Assembly (NCBI RefSeq): GCF_025370875.1
Contig: NZ_JAMXFD010000021.1
Coordinates: forward strand, 1 to 64,000
Length of the DNA: 64,000 bases
From: Laspinema palackyanum D2c
GTDB lineage: Bacteria > Cyanobacteriota > Cyanobacteriia > Cyanobacteriales > Laspinemataceae
Direction: 5' to 3'
Position numbers and translations under genes: made by a program. The notes under the pieces are model-generated. The model was not told where the DNA came from. It did no database searches and saw only the letters and a program-made list of their open reading frames with translations. Within the stretch, counting starts at the first letter, position 1; the number at the start of each line of letters is the position of its first letter. Of the stretch, positions 2,974 through 6,390 are shown piece after piece.

Positions 2974-3019
2974 GCCCGATCGCTCTATCGCCTCGATGCC
3001 CGATCGCTCTATCGCCTCG
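2974..3019. repeat. 22-bp HIP1-containing direct repeat, two copies
   Basis: A 22-base unit starting GCCCGATCGCTCTATCGCC occurs at 2974-2995 and again at 2998-3019. A related CGATCGC block lies just before. The second copy overlaps the 3' end of the SGNH protein gene, so its last codons may have been reshaped by repeat expansion. Confidence 0.7.
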
Positions 3020-4301
3020 CTCTCCCCCAGGGAATGGTGGGGTCGGCGGCGAGTTCGACGGCGACGGAAAAAGCGCCGTAGCGGTTGAGGTGACTGGGGT
3101 CTGCAAAGTAATTATCTTGGGTGGGCCAGAGTTGTCCGAGGTCTCGGAAGATAAAGCCTCGTTGAGTCGCCATCCGTTGCATTTGAGTCCGGAATTGTTG
3201 TTCTGAAGAACTTCTCACAGCGTCGAGGTAATCGCTATTTAAGGGGAGATTAACGACAACGAGGGGGATTTGTTGGCTGTTGGTAAATTGCGCGATCGCC
3301 TCTAATGCGCGGGTCTGTGCTCCCTGCAAGCTAAATGCGGCATAATCTCCATCATATTGTCCCGATACTCGCGGATGTTTCTGATAGTAAGTCTCGGGAT
3401 TATAGCGATCGCTCACGGGAACGAACCCCCTGGGTTGCATTTGGTTGGGGGTCTGTTGGGCAGTCAGGGCTTCCATTGTCGGTAGGGGGGGTCTCCCAGT
3501 GCCGGGGGTGGGTGCGCTGGGTCTGGGGTTGTTGCGCCTCTCTCCCGGGTCCCCCCGTCGCATCCACATCGCCTGTTGTGCCTCCTCATTGTAGGTGGCG
3601 GCAATTTCTTCTCGGACCTGACTAAACCAGACATTCATCGCTTGATAGGTGGTGGCAAGGGCTTCTCGGGGGTCATCATGGGTGGTGAGTGGGGGGGGCG
3701 GGTCTATTTTAGGGAAGGCCCCCGGGACTGCACTTTGCCGTCTTCTAGTCGGTCCGGTTCTGGTGGGGGTGGATGACCCTTGGGTTTGCAGGGGGCGGAC
3801 GCCACTGGAGAGGCGGCGAAACCCTTCGGATTCGAGAATCGCTTGATAGGTGCGATCGGGACGACCATTGTTAAAAGCTCTTACGCCATCAGCCCAAATA
3901 ATTAGTTTGGGGAGTTGATCCGGAGTCAAAATTCTCCGTAATAGGAGCTCAATGACTTGGGCCGTGGCCCCATTGATGCTAAAGTTATAAATTCTCAGTC
4001 CCGGATGTCCATAATGGGCTAAGGCGAGTTCTAAGGCGAGGGGGTCTACGCCTTGTAAGGCGCGGGAACTGCCGACGATTAAGATATCTGGAGGTCCGGA
4101 TTGGTTCAACTGCTGCTGATAGCGGATCAGTTGTTCGTCGAGTCGCTGACTGTTAAAGGAGGGGAACGGCTGGGACTGGGATCCTCGGGCGTTGACGGCC
4201 CCCTGGGCGATCGCCGGAGGAATCCACAGGGTTTGAGTTACTGCTGGGAATGCGATCGCCAGGGATAACAGTCTCAAAGTCACAAACGCGCGTCTTTTCA
4301 T
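3009..4301 (-). CDS. Exported SGNH/GDSL-like hydrolase-fold protein
   Basis: This 430-residue protein has an N-terminal export signal (MKRRAFVTLRLLSLAIAF, cleavage probably after AIA near residue 32). The mature part opens an SGNH-type fold: block I is DILIVGSSRALQGVDP (about 73-88), with Ser in the GSSR context seen in DltD and alginate acetylation-related proteins. Near the C terminus DPSHLNRYGA supplies the block V Asp-x-x-His pair. A Pro/Arg-rich insert of low complexity (about 165-270) separates them. Probable role is esterase or acyl transferase on an envelope or exopolysaccharide substrate; this is inference. It stands alone, with an RNA-rich intergenic region on its upstream side. Confidence 0.65.
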   Translation of the reverse strand: MKRRAFVTLRLLSLAIAFPAVTQTLWIPPAIAQGAVNARGSQSQPFPSFNSQRLDEQLIRYQQQLNQSGPPDILIVGSSRALQGVDPLALELALAHYGHPGLRIYNFSINGATAQVIELLLRRILTPDQLPKLIIWADGVRAFNNGRPDRTYQAILESEGFRRLSSGVRPLQTQGSSTPTRTGPTRRRQSAVPGAFPKIDPPPPLTTHDDPREALATTYQAMNVWFSQVREEIAATYNEEAQQAMWMRRGDPGERRNNPRPSAPTPGTGRPPLPTMEALTAQQTPNQMQPRGFVPVSDRYNPETYYQKHPRVSGQYDGDYAAFSLQGAQTRALEAIAQFTNSQQIPLVVVNLPLNSDYLDAVRSSSEQQFRTQMQRMATQRGFIFRDLGQLWPTQDNYFADPSHLNRYGAFSVAVELAADPTIPWGRARR

Positions 4302-4640: not shown

Positions 4641-4673
4641 AAATCCCTGTAAAAAAATTTGGAAAATTTTGCA

Positions 4674-4871
4674 AATCTTCACAAGATTTTCACACCCCTG
4701 GATTATCTTGATAATCAGCTAAGGTTCTAAACCTGTTCGTAACTTCTTTCAAAGCCCCTTTAAAAACCGCTGGCTGTAGAGATACCTTTGACAAACGTTT
4801 CTTGTTAAAGGGCTAAGCCAGTTTATAAAAATAACCAATAACCAGACCCACGAGGGTCTGGTTATATTTTT
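4674..4871 (+). ncRNA. Tandem structured RNA unit 1 (candidate sRNA)
   Basis: First of three related units. It opens with a conserved block, ATCTTCAcAAGATTTTCACA, followed 15 bases later by GATAAT (possible -35/-10 pair TTCACA and GATAAT). Then comes the shared TTCAAAGC...TTTAAAAACCGCTGGCTG segment. CTGGCT (4770-4775) pairs with AGCCAG (4816-4821), and CCTTT (4785-4789) with AAAGG (4807-4811). A perfect 12-bp terminator stem (4838-4849 with 4854-4865, loop ACGA) runs into ATTTTT. Open frames here are short and not conserved between units. Function unknown. Confidence 0.65.
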
Positions 4872-4977
4872 GGAGCTAATTTTGGTCCCTGGGTGCCATC
4901 GGAGGCAGAACGGGCAGAAATCAGAACCCCCCCTTTCGGGGGTCATACCCCTCAAAAAATTTTTAGAAAATTTCTCC

Positions 4978-5176
4978 CATCTTCATAAGATATTCACATT
5001 CCTTGAATATAGTGATAATTAATAAAGGTTTTAACTTCTTTTTAACTGATTTCAAAGCTCATTTAAACTCCACTGGCTGACATTTTGTCCCGGACCCTTC
5101 TTCTTATTGTATTGAATAACCGTCAGCCGGTCTATAACATTCTCCCAGATCCCTGCGGGTCTGGGTCTATTATTTT
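4978..5176 (+). ncRNA. Tandem structured RNA unit 2 (candidate sRNA)
   Basis: This unit aligns with unit 1 over the conserved block (ATCTTCATAAGATATTCACA, then GATAAT at the same 15-base spacing) and the pre-stem segment. Its main stem is longer: CTGGCTGAC (5073-5081) pairs with GTCAGCCGG (5122-5130), including one G-U pair. The terminator stem CCCAGA-CCC (5144-5153) pairs with GGGTCTGGG (5157-5165) and is followed by TCTATTATTTT. Loop sequences differ from unit 1 while stems are kept, the pattern expected of a structured RNA. Confidence 0.65.
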
Positions 5177-5317
5177 GGAGGGGCATCCAGGTAGGGGACC
5201 CTAAATCTGAGTCCCTTTTGGGATGGAACCCTTTCGGTCTAGGGGATTGCCGCCAGAGGCAGCGACTCCCCGATGGAACCCAGAACCCCCTCAAAAAAAT
5301 TTTTTCAAAGTCAGGAA

Positions 5318-5515
5318 AATCTTCATCAGATATTCACATTGGTTGCTTATCTTGAAAACCAGCAACGGTTATTACCTTTTTTTGACTGCTTTCAATAAAG
5401 TTTTAAAAACCGCTAACTGACTGCCGATGCCTAAAGCCCTCGATTGTTTTTTAATAACTGTCAGTTAGCTGATAAAAGAAGCCCAGACTCTTAAAGGTCT
5501 GGGCTTCTGATTTGG
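5318..5515 (+). ncRNA. Tandem structured RNA unit 3 (candidate sRNA)
   Basis: The conserved block is ATCTTCATCAGATATTCACA. The -10-like position is changed to GAAAAC, so this copy may be weaker or silent. The main stem GCTAACTGAC (5412-5421) pairs perfectly with GTCAGTTAGC (5460-5469). Relative to units 1 and 2, two adjacent G-C pairs have become A-T pairs on both arms, a compensatory double change. A 12-bp terminator stem (5477-5488 with 5497-5508) closes the unit. Its T-run is weak on the plus strand and stronger on the minus strand. Confidence 0.6.
5477..5508. terminator. Bidirectional intrinsic terminator
   Basis: The perfect 12-bp stem AGAAGCCCAGAC / GTCTGGGCTTCT has a 8-base loop. On the plus strand it ends RNA unit 3. 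On the minus strand it lies 16 bases after the fructosamine kinase stop and runs into TTCTTTTATC, a reasonable terminator tail. Confidence 0.7.
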
Positions 5516-5523
5516 GGGATAAG

Positions 5524-6390
5524 TTAATGTAATAGGGTGGCGATCGCCCGATTCGCTTGGGACCCATACCCGCCCCCAAATAAATTAAAATGATTGAGGA
5601 TGTGATAAAGGTTATAAAGGGTTTTGCGCTGTTCATATCCCCCAGGCAACGGCCAAACTTCGTTGTATCCTTGATAGAAAGCCGAAGAAAATCCCCCAAA
5701 CAATTCGGTCATGGCAATATCAACTTCCCGATCGCCATAATAAGTAGCAGGGTCATAAATAGTGGGTTCCCCCCCTTGAGTCACTCCGGCATTGCCACCC
5801 CATAAATCGCCGTGGACGAGGGAGGGTTCGGGGGTATGATTAGCTAATAATTTAGGAATTGCATCCAGGAGGCGATCGCCCTCGGGAAACTGCCCCCCTT
5901 TTCGCCGCGCCAGTTGCAGTTGAAACCCGATGCGATGTTCCACCCAAAACTCGGTCCAATCTCCGGTCCAAGTATTAATCTGCGGGGTGGAACCAATGGT
6001 ATTATTTCGACTCCAGCCAAATTTACCGCAACCGGAATGTTGATGTAAAGCCGCTAATTTCCGCCCCATTTCTCGGGAGACTTCAGTATCAGCACGAGAA
6101 GCCAACTCCAGCCACTCTAAAACAATATAGGCTGAATCATTGGCAATGCCGGTACAAATCGGTTGGGGGACCCGAATGGTCTGGGTGTCCCACATTTCCT
6201 GCAATCCCAACGCCTCCGCCTCAAACATCGGCAAATCCACGGCGCGATTCAGCTTGACAAAATAGGTGCGACTGCCGCCGGTGACGCGATACCCTTGATT
6301 GATGCAACCCCCGCCCACAGAACGGCGATCGCCCAGGGCAAATTTCTCTCCAGTTACCTCAGTAATCTGTTTCGCAATGTGATCCCACAT
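5524..6390 (-). CDS. Fructosamine kinase family protein
   Basis: This 288-residue protein belongs to the fructosamine-3-kinase (FN3K/YniA) family, cytosolic ATP-dependent kinases that phosphorylate ketoamine adducts on proteins or small molecules and so start deglycation. Visible hallmarks are a Gly-rich N-terminal segment (SVGGGCINQGYRV, about 25-37), TYFVKLN with the ATP-binding Lys, the catalytic loop HGDLWGGNAG (about 190-199), and the metal-binding YDPATYYGDREVDIAM with the second Asp. Length is normal. It is followed by a bidirectional terminator shared with RNA unit 3 and is separated from leuB by a palindromic repeat, so it is probably monocistronic. The physiological substrate in cyanobacteria is not established. 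Confidence 0.9.
   Translation of the reverse strand: MWDHIAKQITEVTGEKFALGDRRSVGGGCINQGYRVTGGSRTYFVKLNRAVDLPMFEAEALGLQEMWDTQTIRVPQPICTGIANDSAYIVLEWLELASRADTEVSREMGRKLAALHQHSGCGKFGWSRNNTIGSTPQINTWTGDWTEFWVEHRIGFQLQLARRKGGQFPEGDRLLDAIPKLLANHTPEPSLVHGDLWGGNAGVTQGGEPTIYDPATYYGDREVDIAMTELFGGFSSAFYQGYNEVWPLPGGYEQRKTLYNLYHILNHFNLFGGGYGSQANRAIATLLH

Follow-up and report, generated by a model that had tools for sequence, protein, structure and literature searches.

Three tandem copies of a candidate small RNA family behind a direct-repeat promoter box in Laspinema and related cyanobacteria

Three paralogous genes on the plus strand of the Laspinema palackyanum D2c genome (7.03 Mb in 81 contigs) are likely members of a new family of small RNAs (sRNAs) that would be controlled by a response regulator and would probably act in trans. 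The window, meaning the whole stretch of 64,000 nt that was analysed, covers positions 1-64000 of contig C21 of this genome (G000). The three units lie between a DUF1574-like (SGNH-type) gene, which is located upstream in divergent orientation (3009-4301, minus strand; PF07611, E 3.8e-9), and a convergent fructosamine kinase gene (5524-6390, minus strand; PF03881, E 4.6e-119). The original prediction had proposed undescribed tandem, structured sRNA-like units at this place, and our results support it: no Rfam 15 family reached its gathering threshold in the window or in the related loci that were scanned, and searches of the open-licence literature for small RNAs of Oscillatoria acuminata, PCC 6304 and Laspinema, as well as for covariance-model sRNAs, returned no description of the element. 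At the sequence level the units are intergenic, each with its own predicted promoter and intrinsic terminator (the tail of unit 3 is weak), and their secondary structure is conserved with compensatory change in alignment tests of related rows. To our knowledge, few cyanobacterial sRNAs have assigned functions and tandem sRNA families are fewer still; a defined promoter box, a constant neighbour and the existence of single- and three-copy relatives make the regulator, redundancy and targets of this family directly testable, and the box also exposes the probable regulon of a response regulator.

Each unit is composed of an A-run/T-run tract, a promoter box, a spacer of 9 nt, a -10-like hexamer, a U-rich leader of about 53 nt and a main stem (7-10 bp), and it closes with a terminator-like hairpin. 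The box follows the pattern CTTCA(C/T)-N6-TTCACA and starts at 4677, 4981 and 5321, giving a spacing of 304 and 340 that agrees with the period predicted earlier. The predicted shared 5′ block with fixed spacing to a -10-like element also holds, as in all three units the box is followed by exactly 9 nt and then by TATCTT, TATAGT and TATCTT (units 1, 2 and 3). Independent repeat detection returned a 57-nt repeat, of which copies 2 and 3 are 74% and 65% identical to copy 1.

In unit 1, the tract at 4651-4669 (an A-run followed by T in all aligned rows, with differing lengths) may be a UP-element-like sequence, and the box CTTCACAAGATTTTCACA at 4677-4694 has half-sites 11 bp apart and is identical in 18/18 columns among eight genomes. 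The -10-like TATCTT at 4704-4709, recognised by consensus match only and located 9 nt past the box, would place the transcription start near 4716 and thus define a predicted sRNA of about 155 nt at 4716-4870, both ends being estimates, with its leader at 4716-4768, main stem at 4769-4775/4816-4822 and terminator hairpin at 4838-4865. Unit 2 carries the tract at 4953-4973 (seen in the aligned genus rows), the box CTTCATAAGATATTCACA at 4981-4998 (18/18 columns identical within the genus) and TATAGT at 5008-5013; its predicted sRNA, with ends estimated in the same way, spans 5020-5175 and consists of a leader at 5020-5071, a main stem at 5072-5081/5122-5131 and a terminator hairpin at 5144-5165. 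In unit 3 the tract is found at 5292-5309, again in the aligned genus rows, the box CTTCATCAGATATTCACA at 5321-5338 (18/18 columns identical within the genus) and TATCTT at 5348-5353, followed by a predicted sRNA at 5360-5512, its ends likewise estimated, with a leader at 5360-5411, a main stem at 5412-5421/5460-5469 and a terminator hairpin at 5477-5508. All these features lie on the plus strand. The -10 elements are only moderate matches and the U-tracts are imperfect, being broken into ATATTTTT in unit 1, TCTATTATTTT in unit 2 and GATTT in unit 3. That of unit 3 is the weakest on the plus strand, and the minus strand has TTTATC after the hairpin; this terminator is probably bidirectional and common to the convergent fructosamine kinase gene. 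The terminator stem, predicted to be of the 12-bp class throughout, is indeed 12 bp in unit 1 and 12-13 bp in unit 3, but only 9 bp in unit 2.

A DNA search with unit 2 in 59 related genomes found the array at the same place in all eight genomes of the genus, our own included (Laspinema/Oscillatoria group), and because of this conservation the array is more than a chance arrangement. By eye, neither box nor hairpin was present in L010 and L011, two short DNA matches from other families, which were judged to be chance. In G003 the contig ends within unit 3, and this copy was excluded from the unit 3 identities and from the alignment of complete units (A2). The 18-bp box does not vary within a unit type and is the best-conserved part, with a mean pairwise identity among the genus genomes of 100, 100 and 100% for units 1, 2 and 3, followed by 98.3, 94.1 and 92.9% for the stem arms, 94.8, 92.6 and 86.8% for the leader and 84.1, 69.6 and 81.3% for the apical part, while the 60 nt upstream reach 87.3, 74.0 and 76.3%. 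The leader of unit 1 (94.8%) is barely above its terminator (93.7%), and in unit 3 the leader (86.8%) does not surpass the linker (90.5%) or the spacer between box and start (88.7%). Sequence 3′ of unit 3 is 92.7% identical, but it extends into the kinase gene. A tree built on five of the eight genus genomes sorts the units by type into three groups, with support values of 100/99, 99/99 and 100/99 for units 1, 2 and 3. The triplication is therefore older than those species at least; going by this five-genome tree, it probably arose by duplication before the genus radiated.

The predicted RNAs of units 1, 2 and 3 fold with z-scores of -4.39, -2.43 and -5.43 against shuffled sequence, and 0/200, 6/200 and 0/200 shuffles folded equally well. 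Two adjacent main-stem G-C pairs are A-U in unit 3 with both arms changed, precisely the swap that had been predicted, and the hairpin alignments bear out that terminator pairing is kept despite changes in the loop. A structure test was performed on A4, an alignment of 23 related rows made with MAFFT independently of the structure. Covariation of the stem, which the original prediction had proposed as a check, was present: standard pairs occupy 92.3% of the cells compared with a shuffled mean of 82.6% (0/500 shuffles as high), and at most 47.6% of the cells pair with slid partners. Two-sided changes occur in 47 cells against a shuffle mean of 16.4 (0/500 as high) and affect seven of the ten main-stem pairs. 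Two of the five covariation measures showed no clear excess, namely the number of pairs changed on both sides (30/500) and further pair types (467/500). A second alignment, A6, is made up of 11 related sequences from two more distant families (f48 and f56), all picked by the covariance model R3 and three of them being rows on which R3 was trained; 95.8% of its cells are paired against 87.2% in shuffles, with two-sided change at 8/15 pairs (0/500 shuffles as high) and further pair types at 19/500. As the rows are kin, this covariation is weaker than an R-scape test, and it supports the fold.

Homologues outside the genus were found by covariance-model scanning, as had been suggested at the outset. 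The first model (R1, built on the 23 complete units of A2) matched 13 of the 14 genomes of the window's family at E<=0.1, with three copies in each genus genome, one each in G008 and G009, two each in G011-G013 and none in G010. Among 388 genomes of the order it matched 15 at E<=0.01, adding G075 and G152 from another family, so that the relatives represent three other genera of the window's family and one genus of another. The seven matched genomes that do not belong to the genus (G008, G009, G011-G013, G075 and G152) come from four other genera, and each has a copy convergent with fructosamine kinase; within the window's family the kinase gene is the constant partner of the RNA wherever the contig reaches; a similar DUF1574-like gene lies on the other side in G008 and G009, as judged by eye. 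Model R2, the second one, takes in the box as well. It recovered the same 15 strong genomes and, in addition, an extra copy of promoter, leader and main stem in G013 (C34; L103), ahead of an ORF for a CsbD-like stress protein; in G008 (C168; L104) it found a fragment with promoter and leader before a pentapeptide-repeat ORF. Both look as if promoter and leader copies had been recruited as mRNA leaders. At the kinase locus of the g5 genomes (G011-G013), the first copy has a box without a terminator and the second a terminator without a box; with the two elements split between the copies, a single longer fused RNA is likelier there.

At E<=0.05, R2 matched 41 of the 388 order genomes, 15 of them strongly and the other 26 with a best E of 0.0012-0.046. 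Fifteen of these weak matches were inspected and rechecked with R3, a model retrained with three class-level genomes added (G561, G542 and G642), and they comprise one clear relative (G248, L087, family f19; 47.4 bits), one possible relative (G121, L080, family f9; 29.2 bits), 12 cases of the box alone and one chance-like match (L092). The training genomes came from an R2 search of 388 genomes of the class, which beyond our own genome returned G561, G542, G642 and G581 at E<=1e-3; G581 matched only in its promoter, which stands before a small ORF, and was left uncounted. With R3, 12 of the 388 class genomes matched at E<=0.01, consisting of our own, the three training genomes and eight untrained ones, all eight within f48 and f56, the home of G561, G542 and G642. 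The f48/f56 RNAs are shorter (107-133 nt) and adjoin genes other than fructosamine kinase; they keep the order AAAA-NCGC, stem, YATAA and CCCAG-hairpin-CTGGG, with an altered terminator in G561 and two other sequences. We regard these shorter RNAs and those of f19 and f9 as probable homologues, and judged from its distribution the RNA family is older than this array. The high matrix score of another locus, L115, falls in sequence that looks protein-coding, and it was rejected. Since the fold is kept across several cyanobacterial families, the RNA is probably a real regulator.

CRP recognises an inverted repeat, and it was dismissed as a candidate regulator because the repeats here are direct. 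Read as an 8+3+8 direct repeat, the box is CTTCACAA-gat-TTTCACAC, a layout suggestive of the PhoB/OmpR-type class of regulators, and because it ends 9 nt before the -10-like element it overlies the -35 region, the position expected of an activator box. The Pho box of PhoB and of cyanobacterial SphR is described as 8-bp direct repeats with a 3-bp linker and the consensus CTTAACCT, with SphR said to use at least three repeats (PMC1906773). The box here shares the repeat length and linker with the Pho box so described; however, CTTAACCT and CTTCACAA are mismatched at three of eight positions (5/8 match). The HLR1 motif of RpaB was weighed for its similar half-site; as published, it consists of two (G/T)TTACA(T/A)(T/A) repeats 2 nt apart (PMC9241938), and this 8+2+8 spacing differs from the 8+3+8 of the present box, in which TTCAC-type half-sites stand 11 bp apart.

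The box is not limited to the RNA genes. A scan of the 14 family genomes returned 42 matches against one for a reversed-pattern control; 30 of the 42 are the RNA genes themselves; of the other 12, eight precede a second hairpin element, and the rest a membrane-like ORF of 72-76 aa (in G008, G009 and G010) or a pentapeptide ORF (in G008). Small two-helix membrane-like ORFs were found behind a box at G000:C5:162630-162659 (L228), on G008 C184, at G009 C1:3190195 and on G010 C103. Among the weak box-only matches, L081, L083 and L089 come from another family and stand before a small, membrane-like ORF similar to these, and L082 and L093 stand before a pentapeptide-like ORF, all judged by eye; box-bearing small two-helix membrane ORFs thus occur in two families. 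In the window's family the 72-76-aa ORF is followed by one that carries CPCC...CPHCW motifs. Searched with their first 70 residues, the membrane-like ORF of our own genome matched nothing in Pfam or NCBIfam, and the CPCC ORF nothing in NCBIfam.

The exact box pattern occurs at 46 loci of named genomes, several of them from Spirulina-like genomes. We observed the form CTTCAC(A/G)AG(T/A)T(T/A)TTCACA, in Spirulina-like and other genomes, before many kinases of the sensor and Ser/Thr types and before a phosphonate-binding protein, the loci being L145, L146, L163, L172, L173, L190 (MAG SBLK), L189, L164 and L183. Domain scans of ten ORFs behind the box in such loci found kinase, receiver or sensor (PAS/GAF/HAMP) domains in seven; the remaining three are the phosphonate-binding protein, a solute-binding protein and one ORF lacking a Pfam match. 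Taken by its placement, the box before kinases looks like the probable regulon of one response regulator. Directly behind the box at L160 (2197-2436), and also at L181 and L190, are small ORFs (about 80-90 aa) that end alike, in an R-RIFY/RRVFYAI-type sequence; the one scanned, that of L160, had no Pfam match. In three genomes of Pelosinus (L147, L158 and L167) a similar box, followed after 9 nt by an AT-rich -10-like hexamer, was noticed before an ORF that by eye resembles an OmpR-type response regulator, and this placement suggests autoregulation in Pelosinus. Several other non-cyanobacterial box loci lie inside coding sequence and are chance-like.

On the reading that we prefer, each gene would have its own promoter in which a direct repeat typical of OmpR/PhoB-family response regulators replaces the -35 region, and binding of the phosphorylated regulator to this repeat would turn on all three genes together. 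Transcription, as we infer it, would begin some 7 nt past the -10 element and yield a transcript of about 155 nt, in which the conserved U-rich 5′ leader stays exposed as the probable base-pairing region, the main stem of 7-10 bp folds, and synthesis stops at the intrinsic terminator; main stem and terminator would supply stability and a defined end. The RNA would then act in trans on mRNAs, with the copies partly redundant and co-regulated. A crude duplex scan against 52 roughly defined gene starts in the window brought out neither of the two neighbours nor a convincing target. The three copies would have arisen by duplication before the genus radiated, and relatives keep one to three. A further reading, which we offer as tentative and rather doubtful, takes the sRNA family as the RNA arm of one PhoB/OmpR-type two-component system whose box also drives the hairpin element, the membrane and pentapeptide proteins and the sensor kinases of Spirulina-like genomes. 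If true, it would reveal a hidden cyanobacterial signalling regulon with redundant, Qrr-like sRNAs.

Among known systems, Qrr of Vibrio and OmrA/OmrB of enterics are multi-copy sRNAs driven by response regulators. They resemble the present array in having several near-redundant sRNAs turned on together by one response regulator, but belong to other hosts and have other binding sites. PsrR1 is controlled by RpaB, an OmpR-type regulator, and is likewise a stand-alone sRNA with a terminator under OmpR-family control (such control being presumed here); going by the description of its promoter, it differs in the 8+2 spacing of HLR1 from the 8+3 here. NsiR1 is similar as a multi-copy tandem sRNA of heterocyst-forming cyanobacteria, while the group to which the window belongs presumably does not form heterocysts. 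NsiR1 of heterocystous strains is described as dependent on HetR (PMC4734099), in contrast to the PhoB/OmpR-type box here, and it is by this description that it is set apart. The array is of an ordinary kind, a bacterial sRNA, and the family with this promoter appears to be new as far as PsrR1 and NsiR1 are set apart by their descriptions.

A different origin of the same features would be a purely cis-acting array, in which the hairpins terminate transcription in both directions or form the 3′ UTR of the fructosamine kinase transcript (minus strand) and nothing acts in trans. The convergent copy in every RNA-bearing genome of the window's family, contig permitting, and TTTATC 3′ of the unit 3 hairpin on the minus strand both fit it, yet one terminator would be enough where three units with boxes are found, and it is the box that is best conserved. 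Other genes also flank the more distant relatives and the extra copy of G013, and the idea that every fructosamine kinase gene carries the RNA was discarded when 0/40 downstream regions, sampled from 182 genomes with the gene, had such an element; we consider the cis-acting array unlikely. That the units are diverged homologues of a known cyanobacterial sRNA (PsrR1, Yfr-type, NsiR-type or others) beyond the reach of Rfam is quite unlikely too. One relative does lie downstream of psaF- and psaJ-like genes, as judged by eye, and the best cyanobacterial sub-threshold match was Yfr10, on the 3′ arm and terminator of unit 3, with 25.1 bits against a cut-off of 43 (E 0.36). Against such homology stand the complete lack of matches at gathering score in the window, related loci that gave only microRNA or ribosomal-leader noise, the box spacing of 8+3 versus 8+2 for HLR1, and a detected distribution that is patchy.

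Clustered sites could in principle act as a DNA-level decoy that titrates the response regulator, with the RNA as a by-product, and a box that is the most conserved part, at 18/18 columns per unit, would suit this. A decoy would leave the covarying stem, the conserved terminators and the single-copy loci of other genera unexplained, which makes it very improbable. We give hardly any credence to three short protein-coding genes or a mobile repeat. Several unit 1 copies do contain a frame that opens with an MP-T-VSC-like sequence and reaches about 20 codons at most, but this frame is absent from G000 and G004, the units have no frame in common, and a frame comparison of the genus units found none of at least 10 codons conserved across the genus. 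The promoter-plus-leader copies elsewhere in G013 and G008 would agree with mobility, but the same placement recurs in eight genomes, and in our own genome the covariance model finds three copies only (DNA match alone finds two), which does not fit the scattered mobile repeat against which the original prediction was to be checked.

Lastly, the genus has a second structured element, found in our own genome at G000:C16:122234-122340 (L227) and also at L221-L226, which had no Rfam match at the element. It consists of the box GTTCACAAGATTTTCACA (ATTCACA... in our own genome) followed by an imperfect hairpin of about 77 nt, GAGTTAGCTA...TAGCTAACTC, and six of the seven copies examined, those with a correctly placed fold window, fold at about -43 to -52 kcal/mol. 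In total the element occupies eight sites in seven genus genomes, with two copies in G005 and a site in G006 identified by pattern only.
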